This document shows positions 4,665 through 12,441 of a stretch of 64,000 bases of DNA, one piece after another. Below the pieces are notes generated by a model. That model saw only the letters and a program-made list of their open reading frames with translations. It had not been told where the DNA came from and did no database searches. Location of the stretch: positions 2,976,001 to 3,040,000 of the forward strand of contig NZ_JAPDFT010000001.1 of the NCBI RefSeq assembly GCF_025949665.1. Reading direction: 5' to 3'. Every line of letters starts with the position of its first letter. Within the stretch, counting starts at the first letter, position 1. The DNA is from Chryseobacterium viscerum. Its GTDB lineage: Bacteria > Bacteroidota > Bacteroidia > Flavobacteriales > Weeksellaceae. The translations under genes were made by a program, and so were the position numbers.

Positions 4665-5207
4665 TTATTGATTATGCTTCACCCAGATCAGTTCATCGGT
4701 ATTATAACCTATTTTTTTTGCTTTCTGAATGAAACGCTGACGAATGCTTTCCGGAATATTTGTTGTACGGGAAAGAATCCATAAATATTTTAAACTGCTT
4801 CCTGCTACCAGGGCATATTGATAGTCTTCATCAATATCTATGACATTGTAACCAGCCCAGATTGGTTTAAAAAATGAAACTTTCAGGCGGGCTTCCGTAG
4901 TATCTTTTACAAATTTTGCTTCCCCAATCGATTCATTCCATATTTTTTTTATGTAGTCGAACCCTTTATTTCTGACCTGAACTGTTCCATCCGAATTCTC
5001 CGTATATTCAGCAGTAACATTATCCATATTTTTTTCAAACCTGTAATCAAAACGGGCGATCTCATACCATCTGCCAAGATATTTTTTAAGATCAAAATTC
5101 TTTACCGCAGATGCTCCTCTGGGAATTCTTACAGAATAGGAATTAAAAACGATAAGCCCTAATGCTCCCAACGAAACGGGGAGTATAATTTTATGAATAG
5201 TTTTCAT
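4665..5207 (-). CDS. lipocalin family protein (Blc-like)
   Basis: A 180-residue protein of normal bacterial lipocalin size. The lipocalin signature KYLGRWYEIARFDYRFE is near residues 43-59 and YALVAGSSLKYLWILSR lies in the barrel C-terminal part, as in Blc. Members bind lipids or lysophospholipids at the envelope. The N-terminus has a hydrophobic stretch (about residues 6-24) but no cysteine, so unlike E. coli Blc it is not an obvious lipoprotein and may be anchored or exported. It stands alone, converging on the gene at 4129. Confidence 0.88.
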   Translation of the reverse strand: MKTIHKIILPVSLGALGLIVFNSYSVRIPRGASAVKNFDLKKYLGRWYEIARFDYRFEKNMDNVTAEYTENSDGTVQVRNKGFDYIKKIWNESIGEAKFVKDTTEARLKVSFFKPIWAGYNVIDIDEDYQYALVAGSSLKYLWILSRTTNIPESIRQRFIQKAKKIGYNTDELIWVKHNQ

Positions 5208-5282: not shown

Positions 5283-6017
5283 CTATGAAAATACCTTCAG
5301 GAAATTATCTTTAAAACTACCTGAAACTTCAATTTCTGTATCGTCAGACAACATTACAGTTCCGCTTTTATGATAAGATTTTACGAAACCCGTATTGATA
5401 ATATGGGAACGGTGAACTCTCACAAAAGGGCTTTCCAACAGATCATCAAAGTGTTTTAAAAACCGGCACACCATTTTCTTGGAACCGTCGGTAAGATAAA
5501 CCTGTGTAAAGTTTCCATCAGCCTGAAGTCTCACAATATCTTCAGTCTTTACGACATCAAATCCCTGCAGGGTTGGAAGAATCAGCTGCTGCTTTTCTGG
5601 TTTTAATTTCAGGTTTTCAAGCAGGATCTTATTCCGGTTGAGTTCTTCTTTTTTCTCAAGGCTTTCCACCACTTTATTCACCGCAAGAATCAACTCCTGA
5701 ATATCAATAGGTTTTAAAATATAATAACTTGCCGATTTATTTAAAGCCTGCAAAGAGTATTGTGAAAATGCAGTAATGAAAATGGTTTCATAGGAGAAAT
5801 CTTTGGTGGCTTCCAGAACGTCAAAAGCATTTCCAAAAGGCATTTCTACATCGAGAAAAACCAATTGAGGCTGCTTTTCAGCAATCAATGGTACGGCTTC
5901 TTTAATATTTTCAGCTTCACCAAGAATTTCCACCTGCGGGCAGTATTTGGTAAGATAGCTTCGTAAAACTTCTCTTGCTATGAGTTCATCATCTACAATG
6001 ACAGCTTTTATTTTCAT
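5283..6017 (-). CDS. LytTR family response regulator
   Basis: Receiver plus LytTR DNA-binding protein of 244 residues. Counted from MKIKAVIVDDE, the acidic pair is D9-D10, the phosphoacceptor is D56 (LVFLDVEMP) and K107 lies in YYILKP. The LytTR domain covers about 140-243, with FVRVHRSHIIN. An in-frame ATG 14 codons upstream would add a tail not seen in the family, so the start at 6017 is preferred. The partner is probably the TPR histidine kinase at 7342-9135, two genes upstream on the same strand. LytTR proteins bind direct repeats about 21 bp apart, and such repeats precede the three genes just beyond the kinase, making them the likely targets. Confidence 0.93.
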   Translation of the reverse strand: MKIKAVIVDDELIAREVLRSYLTKYCPQVEILGEAENIKEAVPLIAEKQPQLVFLDVEMPFGNAFDVLEATKDFSYETIFITAFSQYSLQALNKSASYYILKPIDIQELILAVNKVVESLEKKEELNRNKILLENLKLKPEKQQLILPTLQGFDVVKTEDIVRLQADGNFTQVYLTDGSKKMVCRFLKHFDDLLESPFVRVHRSHIINTGFVKSYHKSGTVMLSDDTEIEVSGSFKDNFLKVFS

Positions 6018-6114: not shown

Positions 6115-6531
6115 CTATACTTTCTTCCAGCACCATGCGTACTTTACGATTAATATTGTAATGATGCATTCTACCATTGCAAGGAAAACATAAAACAAAT
6201 ACCAATCCGAGAAGGAAATAACACCAATAAACAACATAACCAAAGTAAAAAATGTACCAAAAATGATGTTGAGAATTCTGTTGATCACTGGTTTCAGGAT
6301 CAGAGAAAGAAATACCATCACCGCTGGAATTGCCAGAACAACAGAAGCAAGAAATAATTTCGGCGGAGAATCTAATAAATTGGTTCCTTCCACCAGACCG
6401 CGTGCTTTCCCCGGAGTATAAAGCTCGAAATAATCACCGTACAGATAGCACAGAGTAACTGAAGCCCAAAGACCTGCCAATATGATTTTCACATTGATCT
6501 GTACATCTTCAAATTTTGTAGAATTGTTCAT
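6115..6531 (-). CDS. DUF6326 family membrane protein
   Basis: A 138-residue protein with about four hydrophobic segments and the family-like N-terminal stretch IILAGLWASVTLCYLYGDYFELYTPG. No catalytic motif is visible and the function is unknown. It lies between the two-component kinase and its regulator, 12 bp downstream of the DUF4386 gene, so these membrane proteins may be co-transcribed with the signalling genes. A role in sensing is only a guess from position. Confidence 0.85.
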   Translation of the reverse strand: MNNSTKFEDVQINVKIILAGLWASVTLCYLYGDYFELYTPGKARGLVEGTNLLDSPPKLFLASVVLAIPAVMVFLSLILKPVINRILNIIFGTFFTLVMLFIGVISFSDWYLFYVFLAMVECIITILIVKYAWCWKKV

Positions 6532-6543
6532 GGTTATGATTTT

Positions 6544-7236
6544 TTAATTTATTTTTTTATTTCGTATCCCAACCAGCAGCAGCCACAAACAGGTTCCTAT
6601 CTCTCCTATTGTTGCCGGTAATGTAATATAACCTGATATCAGGTAGTCTGAAAAATGAGGAACTGCAATTCTTCCAAAAACGTTGATCAGATATCCAAAA
6701 CACCCCAACATTAAGAAGATGCCTAAAACTTTGGGTAAGAATCCTGACTTATACACCAGATATCCAAAAGGGAAAAGCCATAATCCCCAGAAAACCTGTG
6801 CAATTAAAAGTCCTTTGTTATAATTGCTCAGCAGGAACATTATTTGGCTCTGCAACTGCTTTACATCAAACACTTTTAAATAATCCGTTTCTTCAATAAT
6901 AGTAAGAACAGAAAATTTGTTTTGGAGATTGATAAAGGAAATAGGAATACTGATAAGGGCAAGAATAACCATCAGTTTTGCATAACGATCATCTACAACT
7001 TCCAATAGTTTATACAAAACTAAAGGAAGTAAAGTAAAAGCAATATAACAAATAATGCTGCTTGCTATACTTACTCTGAATAACTGCACTGAAGACGAAA
7101 TATTTTGAAAAGTCAATGCAGAATTTTCCCAGACGATCAGCTTTGACGGAACGTACATTAAACTGAAAAATCCGGTTATTATAACAATGAGATAAAAAAA
7201 TCCCGCGAGTCTGGCTGTTTTGGTAGTTGTAGTCAT
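6544..7236 (-). CDS. DUF4386 family membrane protein
   Basis: A 230-residue, six-segment membrane protein. It begins TTTTKTARLAGFFYLIVIITGFF, which is typical of DUF4386, and also contains LLIAQVFWGLWLFPFGYLV. There are no known active-site residues. It is 105 bp downstream of the kinase gene and 12 bp upstream of the DUF6326 gene. Function is unknown; its place inside a two-component locus is the only clue. Confidence 0.88.
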   Translation of the reverse strand: MTTTTKTARLAGFFYLIVIITGFFSLMYVPSKLIVWENSALTFQNISSSVQLFRVSIASSIICYIAFTLLPLVLYKLLEVVDDRYAKLMVILALISIPISFINLQNKFSVLTIIEETDYLKVFDVKQLQSQIMFLLSNYNKGLLIAQVFWGLWLFPFGYLVYKSGFLPKVLGIFLMLGCFGYLINVFGRIAVPHFSDYLISGYITLPATIGEIGTCLWLLLVGIRNKKIN

Positions 7237-7341: not shown

Positions 7342-9135
7342 TTATGGCATTTTTATTTTTATAGTAACCAAAACTCCGTTATCATTTGACTTATCTTTTA
7401 CAGAACAGGTAATATCTTTTTTGTACAGATCATTCAGAAGCTGAATTCTTTCCAGCGTATTTTTCATTCCTCTCCCTTCTCTGGTTTTTTGATGCTGGGT
7501 TTTCTGCTTTTTACTTTCTTCAATTCCTATTCCGTTGTCTTCGATAAGAATTTTCAGATGTGATTCATTTTTTTCAAAGTTTAATTTTAAAAATCCTTTT
7601 TCTGTTCTGTAGCGGAGTCCGTGCCATATTGCATTTTCCAGAAACGGCTGTATCAGCATTCCCGGAATCTGCAGGTTCTGCATATTGAGGGCTTCATCTA
7701 CAGCAATCTCGTAATCAAATTTATCAGCAAAACGCGTTTTTTCAAGAGCAAGATAATTTTGGAGAAGATCAAGCTCTTGTTGGAAAGGAATAAAATCTTC
7801 GGTAGAATTTTCCATTACACCACGCATCAGCTTGGAGAATTTTGTGAGGTATTGATTAGCTTCCAGCTCATTATTGGTCGCGATAAAATGGTTGACACTA
7901 TTTAAACTGTTAAAAATAAAATGCGGATTCATCTCTCTACGCAGCGACTGAAGAGCAATTTTCTTATTTTTCGTCTGAACCTTTTTCAGCATTCTGAAAA
8001 TAAAAATAACTAATCCGGTAAGCAATATTAAAACTCCGATCAGACTGTAATTAAAGACATTTTTCTTTCTGATAAGTTCGTCTTTAAGTTCTCTTTCTTT
8101 TTCCAGCTGTGAGATTCTCTGCTCTGTATCTTCCAGAATTTTATTATCAACGAGGCTTCTGTCTTTGGAAACCAGGTTCGGTAGTTTTCCCAAAAAATCT
8201 CTGTACAATTGAACAGAGGCATCAATATTCCCTGAAATGGCATACAAGCTGTCCAGTTTTTTTACGCTTTTCTGTGCTTCTAGTGTATGGCCTTTGTCCA
8301 AAGCAATTCCGTAGGCATTTTTCAACAGATCTACGGCTTCTTCCGGATCATTTTTCTTAATATAAATATCCGCAAGCTCCTGGATCTGGTTAACTTTTTC
8401 CTGAGAGTTTTCTTTTACAAAGTCTTCTTTCAGCACCTTCTTTTTGGCTTCAATAGCTTTCTCAAAATTTTTGTTTTCAACGTAGAGATCTGCGAGTTTT
8501 TGATTGATAGCCAAAGCTTGCTTCGGAGCTTCTTTTTTAGAGATTTTATAAGCTGTATTCAGGTTTTCTTCAGCACTGGAGACATCTTTCTGTTTCAGAT
8601 TGACATCAGCCAGCTGGCTGTAACTTTCTGCAAGGTCTCCCTGTTCGTTTTCCTTTTTAGTCAGATTGATGTTATTCTGAATTGCTTCTGCTTTCAGTTC
8701 GGGTGTAGGAGAAGAAAGTCTTGCCGCATCATTAGAATTCACGGCTTTACTTTTTTCGCTATAACTCACTTGTGCTGCCATGCTGTAATTGCTGATGGCA
8801 GGTGTTATTTTGTTCTGTTTTTCCTGTGACTGTGCTAGTCTTCGGGTTGCTTTTTCAATATTGGGTTTGTCATTGAGTTTTTCATACAGCTTTTTGGCTT
8901 TTACATAATATTCTTCACTTTTCGGAAAGTTTCCGCCATTGAAAAATGTTTCACCGATATTATAATAAGAATCTGCCTGGGCAGGTTCATTTTTTGTGTC
9001 CATTGCTTTTTTCAGCTTCTTCGTTTCTACCTGCACTTCTTCCACAGCAGCACTGCTGTTATTAGTGGTTTGGGAATACATTATATTTCCAAAAAGCACC
9101 AGTAAAAAGATAGTAAAGAGTTTAAGCATTTTCAT
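7342..9135 (-). CDS. TPR-containing LytS-type sensor histidine kinase
   Basis: A 597-residue kinase. A signal peptide (residues 1-21, ending MYSQ) is followed by tetratricopeptide-type helical repeats (about 35-330), a coiled coil, one membrane segment (about 360-380) and a His_kinase/HATPase_c unit. The phosphoacceptor His is near residue 404 in MNPHFIFNSLNS, with the ATP-binding motifs LENAIWHG, EDNGIGI and GRGMKN. The TPR part should lie in the periplasm and act as sensor. A near-perfect promoter ends only 4 nt before ATG 9135; a second ATG at 9129 is possible. The cognate regulator is most likely the LytTR gene at 5283. Confidence 0.92.
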   Translation of the reverse strand: MKMLKLFTIFLLVLFGNIMYSQTTNNSSAAVEEVQVETKKLKKAMDTKNEPAQADSYYNIGETFFNGGNFPKSEEYYVKAKKLYEKLNDKPNIEKATRRLAQSQEKQNKITPAISNYSMAAQVSYSEKSKAVNSNDAARLSSPTPELKAEAIQNNINLTKKENEQGDLAESYSQLADVNLKQKDVSSAEENLNTAYKISKKEAPKQALAINQKLADLYVENKNFEKAIEAKKKVLKEDFVKENSQEKVNQIQELADIYIKKNDPEEAVDLLKNAYGIALDKGHTLEAQKSVKKLDSLYAISGNIDASVQLYRDFLGKLPNLVSKDRSLVDNKILEDTEQRISQLEKERELKDELIRKKNVFNYSLIGVLILLTGLVIFIFRMLKKVQTKNKKIALQSLRREMNPHFIFNSLNSVNHFIATNNELEANQYLTKFSKLMRGVMENSTEDFIPFQQELDLLQNYLALEKTRFADKFDYEIAVDEALNMQNLQIPGMLIQPFLENAIWHGLRYRTEKGFLKLNFEKNESHLKILIEDNGIGIEESKKQKTQHQKTREGRGMKNTLERIQLLNDLYKKDITCSVKDKSNDNGVLVTIKIKMP

Positions 9136-9139
9136 AAAA

Positions 9140-9169
9140 CAAAGATATACATATATATAGTCTGCTCAA
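9140..9169 (-). promoter_or_regulatory. Bacteroidota promoter of the TPR histidine kinase gene
   Basis: On the minus strand, TTG (9167-9169), a 19 bp spacer and TATCTTTG (9140-9147) match the -33/-7 consensus. Only 4 nt separate the -7 box from the ATG at 9135, so the transcript would be leaderless or nearly so. Confidence 0.7.
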
Positions 9170-9175
9170 AAACTA

Positions 9176-9206
9176 TTCACCAAGTGAAGTTTCCCATTCA
9201 CCAAGT
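9176..9206 (+). promoter_or_regulatory. tandem LytTR-type operator 1
   Basis: Two direct copies of TTCACCAAGT (9176-9185 and 9197-9206), start to start 21 bp. The proximal copy ends 28 bp before TAAGTTTG (9235-9242), the -7 box for the SIMPL gene at 9270. No TTG lies at the usual -33 distance, which suits an activator-dependent promoter. The divergent kinase promoter lies on the other side. Confidence 0.8.
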
Positions 9207-9269
9207 TGAGTCTCTGATACTGTGACCGTAAGGCTAAGTTTGAGGCAAAATAATTCAAATTTAAAAATC

Positions 9270-10187
9270 ATGAAAAAACTAACATTTACATTTTGTATCA
9301 TCACTGCATCTTTTTTTAATCTTTCAAAAGCACAGGTTGGAGGAAACCAAATCTACAAAGACAAAAATAACGCCGATTATTCCGCTCCCAGAAATCTCAC
9401 TGAATTTAACAATACCAATAGTTATTTCACCAACGACTCTACACTGATTGTTAATGTAAAAATATTGATGAACAAGCCTGCAGACCGTTACAAAATCACA
9501 CTCGGACTGAATGAGGAAGCTGACACTCCAAAAATTGCACTGGAGAATATCAATAAGAGAATCAATGGTTTTATCAAAAGGATATCTTCAATGGGAATCA
9601 AAACTGATGATATTTTTGTGGATTTTATTTCACAAACGAAAGTCTATGATTACAACATCAATAAAGACTCACAGGTAACCACCCAGAAAATGGATGGATT
9701 TGAAACTAAGAAAAATATCATTATTACAGTAAACAAGCACTCAATGATTGAAAAGCTGATCTCTGAAGCTTCCGATTTCCAGATTTATGACGTTATCAAA
9801 GTAGACTATATCAGCAATGATATTGATAAAATTCAGGAAGATCTACTCAAGGAAGCATATTCTGTTTTTGACAAAAAGAAAGGAAACTATTTTAAAATGT
9901 TTAAAAAGGAAATTATCGGAAACCCTACAGCTACATCCGGTTTTACATATGTTTTCCCTAAAAGTCAATATCAAAATTATACAGCTTTTGAAAGTGCGAA
10001 TGTCACCTATGGATATGACACCAGGTATGTAAAGAAGGAAGAGAGAAAGTCAAAAACCTTTTATTATGACGGTACAGATTATATCGGTTTTGATAAGGTC
10101 ATCAATAATGCTGATCCTGAAGTGGGCATACAATATATCATGAACCTCAACGTAAAATATGATCTGAAAAAGAATAAAGAGAAATAA
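9270..10187 (+). CDS. secreted SIMPL (DUF541) domain protein
   Basis: A 305-residue exported protein. The signal peptide is about residues 1-22 (ending LSKAQ), followed by a SIMPL-type body: STLIVNVKILMNKPADRYKI, the helix ALENINKRINGFIKRISSMGIKTDDI, and the strand FETKKNIIITVNKH. The family is named from the IRAK1-binding partner; bacterial members are envelope proteins of unclear role. A GTG 16 codons upstream was rejected because it destroys the signal peptide and lies inside the probable promoter leader. It is the first of three consecutive genes carrying the same operator, and paralogous to the next gene. Confidence 0.85.
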   Translation: MKKLTFTFCIITASFFNLSKAQVGGNQIYKDKNNADYSAPRNLTEFNNTNSYFTNDSTLIVNVKILMNKPADRYKITLGLNEEADTPKIALENINKRINGFIKRISSMGIKTDDIFVDFISQTKVYDYNINKDSQVTTQKMDGFETKKNIIITVNKHSMIEKLISEASDFQIYDVIKVDYISNDIDKIQEDLLKEAYSVFDKKKGNYFKMFKKEIIGNPTATSGFTYVFPKSQYQNYTAFESANVTYGYDTRYVKKEERKSKTFYYDGTDYIGFDKVINNADPEVGIQYIMNLNVKYDLKKNKEK

Positions 10188-10276
10188 AGTAAAAACATCT
10201 CTTCATCATCTTAATAGCTTAAAAAATCTAACAGTTTAAAAAAGTCTTTTTTACCTCATTCTTCTTTTTACAAAGG

Positions 10277-10307
10277 CTCACCAAGTGAAAGCTCCATTTC
10301 ACCAAGT
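10277..10307 (+). promoter_or_regulatory. tandem LytTR-type operator 2
   Basis: CTCACCAAGT (10277-10286) and TTCACCAAGT (10298-10307) repeat with 21 bp spacing. The proximal copy ends 27 bp before TAATTTTA (10335-10342), the probable -7 box of the SIMPL gene at 10376. A -33 TTG is missing at the right distance. Confidence 0.8.
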
Positions 10308-10375
10308 CTTCCGGAATCCGGTAACTGAACTGTGTAATTTTACATCAGTAATTAAAAATTTAAAAACAGGAAATT

Positions 10376-11050
10376 ATGAAATTGAAACATTTTTTATTAA
10401 TCGGAATTTTAACCCTTGGAAGCTTTGTAAATGCTCAGGAAGTAAAGAAAAATGCAATTGAGGTAACAGGTGTTGCCGAAATGGAAGTAGAACCGGATGA
10501 AATTATCTTCAGCATCGGAATAAAAGCAGATAACAAAAATGATCTGGCAGATAATGAGAAAAAGTTATTTGAAACTTTAAAGAATGCAGGAATAAAGAAT
10601 GAAGACATCAAGTTCAAATCTATGTATCAGAATATCTATTCTAAAACAGCTAAGTTTTCTAAGAACTATCAGTTTAAAGCCAGCACAAAATCAAGTCTTA
10701 GCAAAATTTTTGAAGACCTGAACCAAAAATGGGTAAACAGCCTGAACATTACAGAGGTAAAGAGTACTAAAATTGCAGATTTCAGAAAAGCAGTTAAGAT
10801 CAATGCTTTGAAAGCCGCTAAAGAAAAGGCAGATTATTTATTGGAAAGCATGGGTAAAAAGACAGGAAATGCTCTTGAGATTGTAGAGATAGAAGATTAC
10901 ACCAGTGATATGATTATGCCAGCAGCTTACAAAGGAAGAGCAAGCAATATTCAGTTGGAAATGGCTGATGCTCCGGTAGATTATTCTTTTGATAATATTG
11001 AGAATATCAAGCTGAAATACAGCATCAAAACCAAATACGAAATCCTTTAA
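10376..11050 (+). CDS. secreted SIMPL (DUF541) domain protein
   Basis: A 224-residue protein with a signal peptide (residues 1-20, ending VNAQ) and a complete SIMPL domain. It has IEVTGVAEMEVEPDEIIFSIGI at the N-terminus and the helix KAVKINALKAAKEKADYLLESMG typical of the family in the C-terminal half. Location should be periplasm or outer membrane. A direct relation to the preceding gene is visible in domain order. It ends in a strong terminator, so although next to the VWA gene it is a separate unit controlled through its own copy of the operator. Confidence 0.9.
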   Translation: MKLKHFLLIGILTLGSFVNAQEVKKNAIEVTGVAEMEVEPDEIIFSIGIKADNKNDLADNEKKLFETLKNAGIKNEDIKFKSMYQNIYSKTAKFSKNYQFKASTKSSLSKIFEDLNQKWVNSLNITEVKSTKIADFRKAVKINALKAAKEKADYLLESMGKKTGNALEIVEIEDYTSDMIMPAAYKGRASNIQLEMADAPVDYSFDNIENIKLKYSIKTKYEIL

Positions 11051-11061
11051 AATAACAGATT

Positions 11062-11096
11062 AAAAAAAGACAGCTCCTCTGGAGCTGTCTTTTTTT
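11062..11096 (+). terminator. rho-independent terminator
   Basis: AAAGACAGCTCC and GGAGCTGTCTTT form a perfect stem with a 3-nt loop, followed by T residues, 11 bp after the SIMPL gene. Confidence 0.9.
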
Positions 11097-11109
11097 GCGT
11101 GCTGCCAAG

Positions 11110-11140
11110 TTCACCAAGTCAAACTACTGATTCACCAAGT
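11110..11140 (+). promoter_or_regulatory. tandem LytTR-type operator 3
   Basis: TTCACCAAGT occurs at 11110-11119 and again at 11131-11140, spacing 21 bp. The proximal copy ends 27 bp before TAATTTTA (11168-11175), the likely -7 box for the VWA gene at 11251. No -33 TTG is at the proper distance. Confidence 0.8.
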
Positions 11141-11250
11141 TTCCCAGTTTACAGCCATAAATAGGGATAATTTTACTTTAGGAATTCAAAATAATAAACA
11201 TTGAAATCCTATTACCTAATTACAGCAGACAACTTATAAAAAATAACAAT

Positions 11251-12441
11251 ATGACAACTTTAAAAATCTTAGCACTTGCAGCGGGTACAGCTTTTTTAAG
11301 CTCTGGTAATATTCCGGACAACCGCTCTACACAAAATAATGTTGACAGCCATTTATCTATACAGAAAACAGCATTAGTTCCGGCCAGTTCAACTTTAAAG
11401 GACAATAAAATTCAGGTTGCTCTTTTACTGGATACTTCCAATAGTATGGACGGGCTGATTGATCAGGCAAAATCGAGACTCTGGAATATTGTGAATACTT
11501 TGACAACTCTAAGGTACAACGGAAAAGCTCCCCAGATTGAAATTGCCCTGTATGAATATGGAAACGACGGAATCCGTGATGAAAATTATATCCGTCAGGT
11601 TGCTCCTCTCACTCAGGACCTTGATCTCATTTCCGAAAAATTGTTTGCATTAAGAACCAATGGAGGCAGTGAATATTGCGGTGCTGTCATTCGTGATGCT
11701 TCTGCCAACCTGAACTGGGACAGCAATGATAAAAGTATGAAGCTGATTTATATTGCCGGGAATGAAGCATTCGATCAGGGAAAAATAAATTATAAAGACG
11801 TGGTTTCAAAAGCAAAGGATAAAAATATTTACACCAACACCATTTTCTGTGGAAGCCGGGAAGAAGGAATCCAGACTTTCTGGCAAAACGGAGCATTATT
11901 GGGAGGTGGGAAGTATTTCAATATCGATAGTGACAGAAAAGTAATCTATATTGAAACTCCTTATGACATCAGAATCTCCGAATGTAATGCAAAGCTGAAT
12001 GATACGTATATCTATTACGGAAATCACGGTTCGGAATACAGATTAAAGCAGATCACACAAGATAAAAACGCAGAAATGCAGTCAGCATCCAACTTAGTGG
12101 AAAGAGCCGTAGCCAAATCCAAAAAGAATGCTTACAAAAATGATCACTGGGATCTGGTAGATAAAGCGGAAAAGGATGCCGGATTTATTGCTAATGTAAA
12201 AGAAAGTGAACTTCCTGCCGAGCTGAAAGGAAAAAGCAAGGAAGAAATTCAGAAAACGATTACGGCAAAATCTGCTGCTCGTGATAAAATTCAGAAAGAA
12301 ATTGAAGACCTTTCCAAAAAACGCCAGTCCTATATTGACGGAGAAATGAAGAAACGTGGAACTGATGATTCTGACGATCTTGGAAAAGCCATTGAGAGTT
12401 CTATTCTTGAACTTGCAAAAAAGAATGGGTATAGTTTGTAG
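11251..12441 (+). CDS. exported von Willebrand factor A domain protein
   Basis: A 396-residue protein. An N-terminal hydrophobic export signal is followed by a VWA domain at about 52-235 with the metal-ion site DTSNSM (D61, S63, S65). Further parts are RTNGGSEYCGAVI and the helical, lysine-rich C-terminal half (about 285-380), which is probably coiled coil. VWA proteins usually bind partner proteins through a divalent metal. It is the third gene with the tandem operator, so it is likely co-regulated with the two SIMPL genes and may act with them at the envelope. A 70-nt leader separates its -7 box from the ATG. Confidence 0.88.
   Translation: MTTLKILALAAGTAFLSSGNIPDNRSTQNNVDSHLSIQKTALVPASSTLKDNKIQVALLLDTSNSMDGLIDQAKSRLWNIVNTLTTLRYNGKAPQIEIALYEYGNDGIRDENYIRQVAPLTQDLDLISEKLFALRTNGGSEYCGAVIRDASANLNWDSNDKSMKLIYIAGNEAFDQGKINYKDVVSKAKDKNIYTNTIFCGSREEGIQTFWQNGALLGGGKYFNIDSDRKVIYIETPYDIRISECNAKLNDTYIYYGNHGSEYRLKQITQDKNAEMQSASNLVERAVAKSKKNAYKNDHWDLVDKAEKDAGFIANVKESELPAELKGKSKEEIQKTITAKSAARDKIQKEIEDLSKKRQSYIDGEMKKRGTDDSDDLGKAIESSILELAKKNGYSL

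Follow-up and report, generated by a model that had tools for sequence, protein, structure and literature searches.

Operators of LytTR regulators have been described as 9-bp direct repeats separated by a spacer of 11 to 13 bp, mostly 12 bp, which read ACC.. toward the promoter and typically lie 10 bp upstream of the −35 element, and the sites of such geometry studied there activate transcription (PMC6193735). This form is found in HdrR/BrsR and other LytTR Regulatory Systems, where the regulator is accompanied by a membrane inhibitor, the operator lies just upstream of a −35/−10 promoter, and the regulatory operon is autoregulated (PMC6193735). BtsS/BtsR and YpdA/YpdB combine a His_kinase-type sensor, multi-pass and of the LytS type, with a LytTR response regulator that has few target genes, for transporters (PMC5552118). 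AgrA is a response regulator with a LytTR domain and a conserved DNA-contact motif of the type FhRhHRS; it belongs to a peptide quorum-sensing system, and its target promoters have poor core elements (PMC4227749).

The 64-kb stretch of Chryseobacterium DNA analysed here (the window) encodes a LytTR response regulator (RR) of 244 aa (5283..6017, minus strand). The initial annotation had recognized this protein from the sequence, and Pfam matches to LytTR (E 2.6e-11) and Response_reg (E 5.2e-16), both above the curated cut-off, showed that it is real. The RR contains FVRVHRS, the conserved FhRhHRS motif, and resembles AgrA in this motif, in its domains and in having predicted target promoters with poor core elements, although no peptide gene was seen here. 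A PDB sequence search with the regulator gave solely receiver-domain relatives among the matches listed. The partner of the regulator is a His_kinase/HATPase protein (7342..9135, minus strand), not the membrane inhibitor that replaces a kinase in the LytTR Regulatory System. It is of the same general type as the BtsS and YpdA sensors; unlike their multi-pass LytS architecture, however, it has a signal peptide followed by TPR repeats, and a single internal membrane segment (365-383). Genes for two membrane proteins, DUF6326 and DUF4386 (6115-7236), separate kinase from regulator in the window. Among 56 same-genus loci with both genes, the gap between them is below 200 nt in 40 and below 1000 nt in 54. 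A lipocalin-like gene (4665-5207), which has no operator, adjoins the regulator in many relatives.

Divergently from the kinase gene lie three plus-strand genes that had been called SIMPL, SIMPL and VWA genes for secreted proteins, and Pfam confirmed each assignment: SIMPL1 (9270..10187, DUF541, E 2.7e-10), SIMPL2 (10376..11050, DUF541, E 1.7e-20) and a VWA-domain protein (11251..12441, E 7.5e-7). With relatives included, the predicted targets are SIMPL, VWA and DUF4139 proteins, in contrast to the transporters controlled by BtsS/BtsR and YpdA/YpdB, though the number of target genes would be similarly small.

Upstream of these genes, the window contains six exact copies of TCACCAAGT, and only these six. 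They form three direct pairs with a start spacing of exactly 21 bp, just as the initial annotation had claimed, so that the layout TCACCAAGT-N12-TCACCAAGT is 9-12-9 in every case. Operator 1 (9177..9206, half-sites 9177-9185 and 9198-9206) is common to SIMPL1 and the divergent kinase gene, and its position is kept across the genus and the phylum. Operator 2 (10278..10307, half-sites 10278-10286 and 10299-10307), which is also conserved, precedes SIMPL2, and operator 3 (11111..11140, half-sites 11111-11119 and 11132-11140) precedes the VWA gene; all three read on the plus strand. The resemblance to the published LytTR form that had been pointed out extends to the orientation, since here too 9-bp direct repeats with a 12-bp spacer run ACC.. 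toward the promoter and lie just upstream of it (PMC6193735). The half-site ACCAAGTSA shares ACC and T with the published ACCxCTTAx, a partial match to sites that vary widely.

It is the pairing that sets these sites apart. Single TCACCAAGT sites with one mismatch allowed occurred 15 times in the window against 13 expected, which is the chance level, whereas the paired pattern at up to 3 mismatches occurred 3 times against 0.05 expected in shuffled sequences, and none of 100 shuffles reached 3. The genome-wide scan for the motif pair that had been proposed earlier, covering 4.89 Mb, returned at up to 2 mismatches only these three pairs, all at the targets named above. The search for a wider regulon in the same genome yielded no additional pair under 3 mismatches; 7 more matches each had 3 mismatches, compared with 2 matches of the reversed control.

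The distance from operator to promoter is equally regular. The −7 boxes on the plus strand are TAAGTTTG for SIMPL1 (9235..9242), 28 nt from operator 1 and with conserved spacing, and TAATTTTA for both SIMPL2 (10335..10342) and VWA (11168..11175), each 27 nt from its operator; the 27 or 28 bp given previously was therefore accurate. In the genus as a whole, 113 distinct target promoters were compared, and in nearly all of them the pair ends 27-28 nt before a TAnnTTT −7 box. The gap is exactly 27 at all 25 DUF4139 and all 5 VWA sites and at 44 of the 54 SIMPL2-labelled sites, most of the others apparently being additional sites farther upstream or −7 boxes called by chance; it is 27-28 for SIMPL1, for a 191-aa protein and for a second VWA type. 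As the −7 box occupies −12 to −5 in Flavobacterium psychrophilum (PMC9723704), the proximal half-site would lie at about −48 to −40. The proximal repeat is thus just upstream of the expected position of a −33 element, and the operators are about 8 bp nearer the promoter than published LytTR sites (PMC6193735). The −33 element itself is missing, as had been noticed for the three genes of the window: only 2 of the 113 distinct target promoters have a TTG in the interval 17-22 nt upstream of the −7 box, compared with 29 of 56 kinase promoters. The target promoters are of the Bacteroidota TAnnTTTG kind without −33, and not −35/−10 promoters as in the LytTR Regulatory System. The VWA gene directly follows operator 3 and its leader is long, 110 nt separating the operator from the ATG (11141-11251). 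In many relatives a DUF4139 gene is found between operator and VWA, which suggests that DUF4139 was lost in the lineage of the window.

The promoter of the kinase gene does have both elements, a −7 box TATCTTTG (9140..9147, minus strand), 29 nt from operator 1, and a −33 TTG (9167..9169, minus strand). To this extent the initial annotation was right; its further statement that this promoter has no need of the operator is probably wrong, since in all 56 of 56 loci where a −7 box of the kinase gene could be recognised (TATCTTTG or TTACTTTG), it lies 28-29 nt from the first operator. In about 14 genomes (loci L084, L080, L064 and others), a secreted amidohydrolase/SnoaL gene holds the divergent position beside the kinase, and the operator there is kept. 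The amidohydrolase gene was considered as a target in these genomes and rejected, having no −7 box at 27-28 nt. Because operator 1 stands at a fixed distance upstream of the kinase −33, the regulator most likely tunes the kinase gene as well, and autoregulation of the kinase would be the simplest reading. The −7 box of the kinase gene stops 4 nt short of the ATG (9133-9147, minus strand), an arrangement kept across much of the genus. This proximity puts the predicted +1 on the A of the ATG, and the kinase mRNA would be leaderless.

We then asked how closely the pair follows the regulator within the genus. A pair with at most 1 mismatch was found in 138/148 genus genomes, where the reversed control pattern gave 0, and an RR orthologue was likewise found in 138/148. 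Both were present in 136 genomes, neither in 8, and 4 were discordant (Fisher p 4e-10, uncorrected for shared ancestry). All four discordant genomes are explained by degenerate sites or by incomplete or fragmented assemblies: G087 and G115, with RR and no strict pair, have sites with 2-3 mismatches, and the pairs without RR come from G055, where the pair is near a contig edge, and G123, a 73% complete assembly. The 8 double-negative genomes also have no SIMPL2 and VWA, which indicates that all parts of the cassette are acquired or lost together. As most losses take the whole cassette, co-occurrence alone cannot separate a link between regulator and site from a shared locus. Some targets have moved away: they lie about 2 Mb from the kinase/regulator genes in G142, about 209 kb in G052 and about 18 kb in G078, and operators are kept at both places. 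Inspection of 60 same-genus loci gave 146 sites at up to 3 mismatches. In a logo of 78 distinct SIMPL2 and DUF4139 promoters, ACC and G were invariant or nearly so in each of the two half-sites; the spacer had [GC]AAA after the distal half-site and TT before the proximal one, its other positions being variable.

The same association is found outside the genus. Four genomes from other genera of the family (G150, G176, G181, G211) have an RR orthologue, and pairs at 0-1 mismatches accompany it. No site accompanies the VWA homologues of three further genomes of the family (G156, G200, G242); the neighbourhood examined held no kinase/RR relative, and no RR orthologue was detected in these genomes at the cut-off used. 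A scan of 84,980 species genomes revealed RR orthologues in Flavobacterium, Myroides, Chitinophaga, Taibaiella, Parabacteroides, Dysgonomonas, Tannerella and others. Most of them have the same neighbours, the kinase gene and the VWA gene, and at many loci SIMPL and DUF4139 genes are present too; the arrangement is kept in Flavobacterium, Chitinophaga, Taibaiella, Parabacteroides and Dysgonomonas. These orthologues group in a single clade (support 0.85) that excludes the 15 other LytTR proteins encoded by the window genome. A close RR orthologue (E <= 1e-80) was present in 17/395 sampled Bacteroidota genomes, from which we take the system to be widespread but patchy.

A scan upstream of the kinase for 9-mer direct repeats of any sequence, with periods from 10 to 44, found period 21 in 27/50 loci against 3.2 ± 1.4 in shuffled sequences; the runner-up, period 17, was found in 12 loci. 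With a half-site defined by two variants, TCACCAAGT or TCACCCATT, a TCACC[A/C]A[G/T]T-type pair at exactly 21 bp was present in 45/54 distant loci, compared with 1 on the reversed-sequence control, and the other 9/54 had no site under this two-variant criterion. The finding is therefore more general than what the initial annotation had claimed, since the site reappears across Bacteroidota with the same spacing and beside the same set of genes.

Half-sites vary between lineages together with the regulator. Regulators of the window type, with R in the motif FVRVHRS, go with two half-sites of the AAGT type, whereas in other lineages K occupies the position of this R and commonly one half-site is a variant (CATT, TTT or CAGT). 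The pair in G224, where the regulator is about 64% identical, consists of two TTACCCATT half-sites; it keeps the 21-bp spacing and ends 28 nt upstream of a TAGCTTTG box. Such variation fits recognition of the half-sites by the LytTR domain, as judged from sequence; the correlation of R or K with half-site type follows phylogeny. The natural variation of the half-site, accompanied by a changed DNA-contact residue, makes these lineages well suited to work on LytTR specificity.

From these observations, the pairs are almost certainly operators of the LytTR regulator at 5283-6017, as predicted from their sequence and distribution. That they belong to some other DNA-binding protein, the LytTR pair being merely a neighbour, is very improbable. 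The genome does encode 15 other LytTR proteins and many other regulators; throughout the phylum, however, the pair sits beside this kinase/regulator while other neighbours change, and targets without the RR have no site. The other LytTR genes were also considered as the true regulator and rejected, because a TCACC-type 21-bp pair was found in 0/15 of their 3-kb loci. We give hardly any weight to a dispersed or recently duplicated repeat with no regulatory role. The identity of the half-sites in three copies within one cluster could suggest such an origin, but the half-sites are fixed while spacers and flanks differ between copies, and the distance to the −7 box does not change. Phylum-wide conservation refutes this reading. 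Nor do the motifs occupy random positions with no link to promoters, the outcome that had been named as evidence against a regulon; the site tracks both promoters and regulator.

The direction of control is a separate matter. Because the target promoters have no −33 element, the bound regulator most likely recruits RNA polymerase, and activation is suggested by the site position together with this missing element. Since the site adjoins the promoter and its sequence does not give the direction of control, the regulator might instead bind the operators and repress, perhaps as a block to polymerase that phosphorylation would lift. This is unlikely: the sites are upstream of the −33 region and not over the −7 box, the near absence of TTG (2/113) is typical of activated promoters, and the LytTR sites of such geometry studied in PMC6193735 activate. 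The reading as a whole, an activator acting through a canonical LytTR site on the SIMPL, VWA, DUF4139 and kinase genes, is in our judgement highly probable. The activator-dependent envelope regulon first suggested for this locus is thus supported, in that the site tracks the RR across the genus, across genera and to relocated targets, with activation as the likely mode of control.

Under the activator reading, the TPR-type sensor kinase (7342-9135) would detect an envelope signal and phosphorylate the regulator. The regulator would then bind each operator by placing a LytTR domain on each 9-bp repeat, both domains on the same face of the DNA at a distance of two helical turns, and would recruit RNA polymerase in place of the −33 element. 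SIMPL1, SIMPL2 and VWA, and in relatives also DUF4139 and others, would thereby be switched on, and through operator 1 the regulator would tune its own kinase gene, in likeness to the autoregulated operons of LytTR Regulatory Systems (PMC6193735).

LytTR sites of the 9-12-9 form were already known; a regulon of this kind for secreted envelope proteins is apparently undescribed. We found no description of it in the open-licence literature, which is weak evidence of novelty. On balance we lean toward regarding it as an undescribed, phylum-wide envelope regulon of Bacteroidota, in which a two-sided LytTR operator 27-29 nt from two divergent −7 boxes would set the kinase and the secreted SIMPL/VWA/DUF4139 proteins, with the regulator replacing the missing −33 contact. 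To our knowledge, few response-regulator sites have been defined in Bacteroidota, and the SIMPL (DUF541) and DUF4139 families are, as far as we know, still catalogued as of unknown function. With a defined operator, a promoter geometry and a candidate cognate regulator that extend from Chryseobacterium to Chitinophaga and Parabacteroides, the regulon is directly testable, and the operator motif can be used to find its members in many genomes. At one locus (L130 in G298), the regulator has an internal stop and the kinase and SIMPL2 are truncated; the operator before DUF4139 persists.
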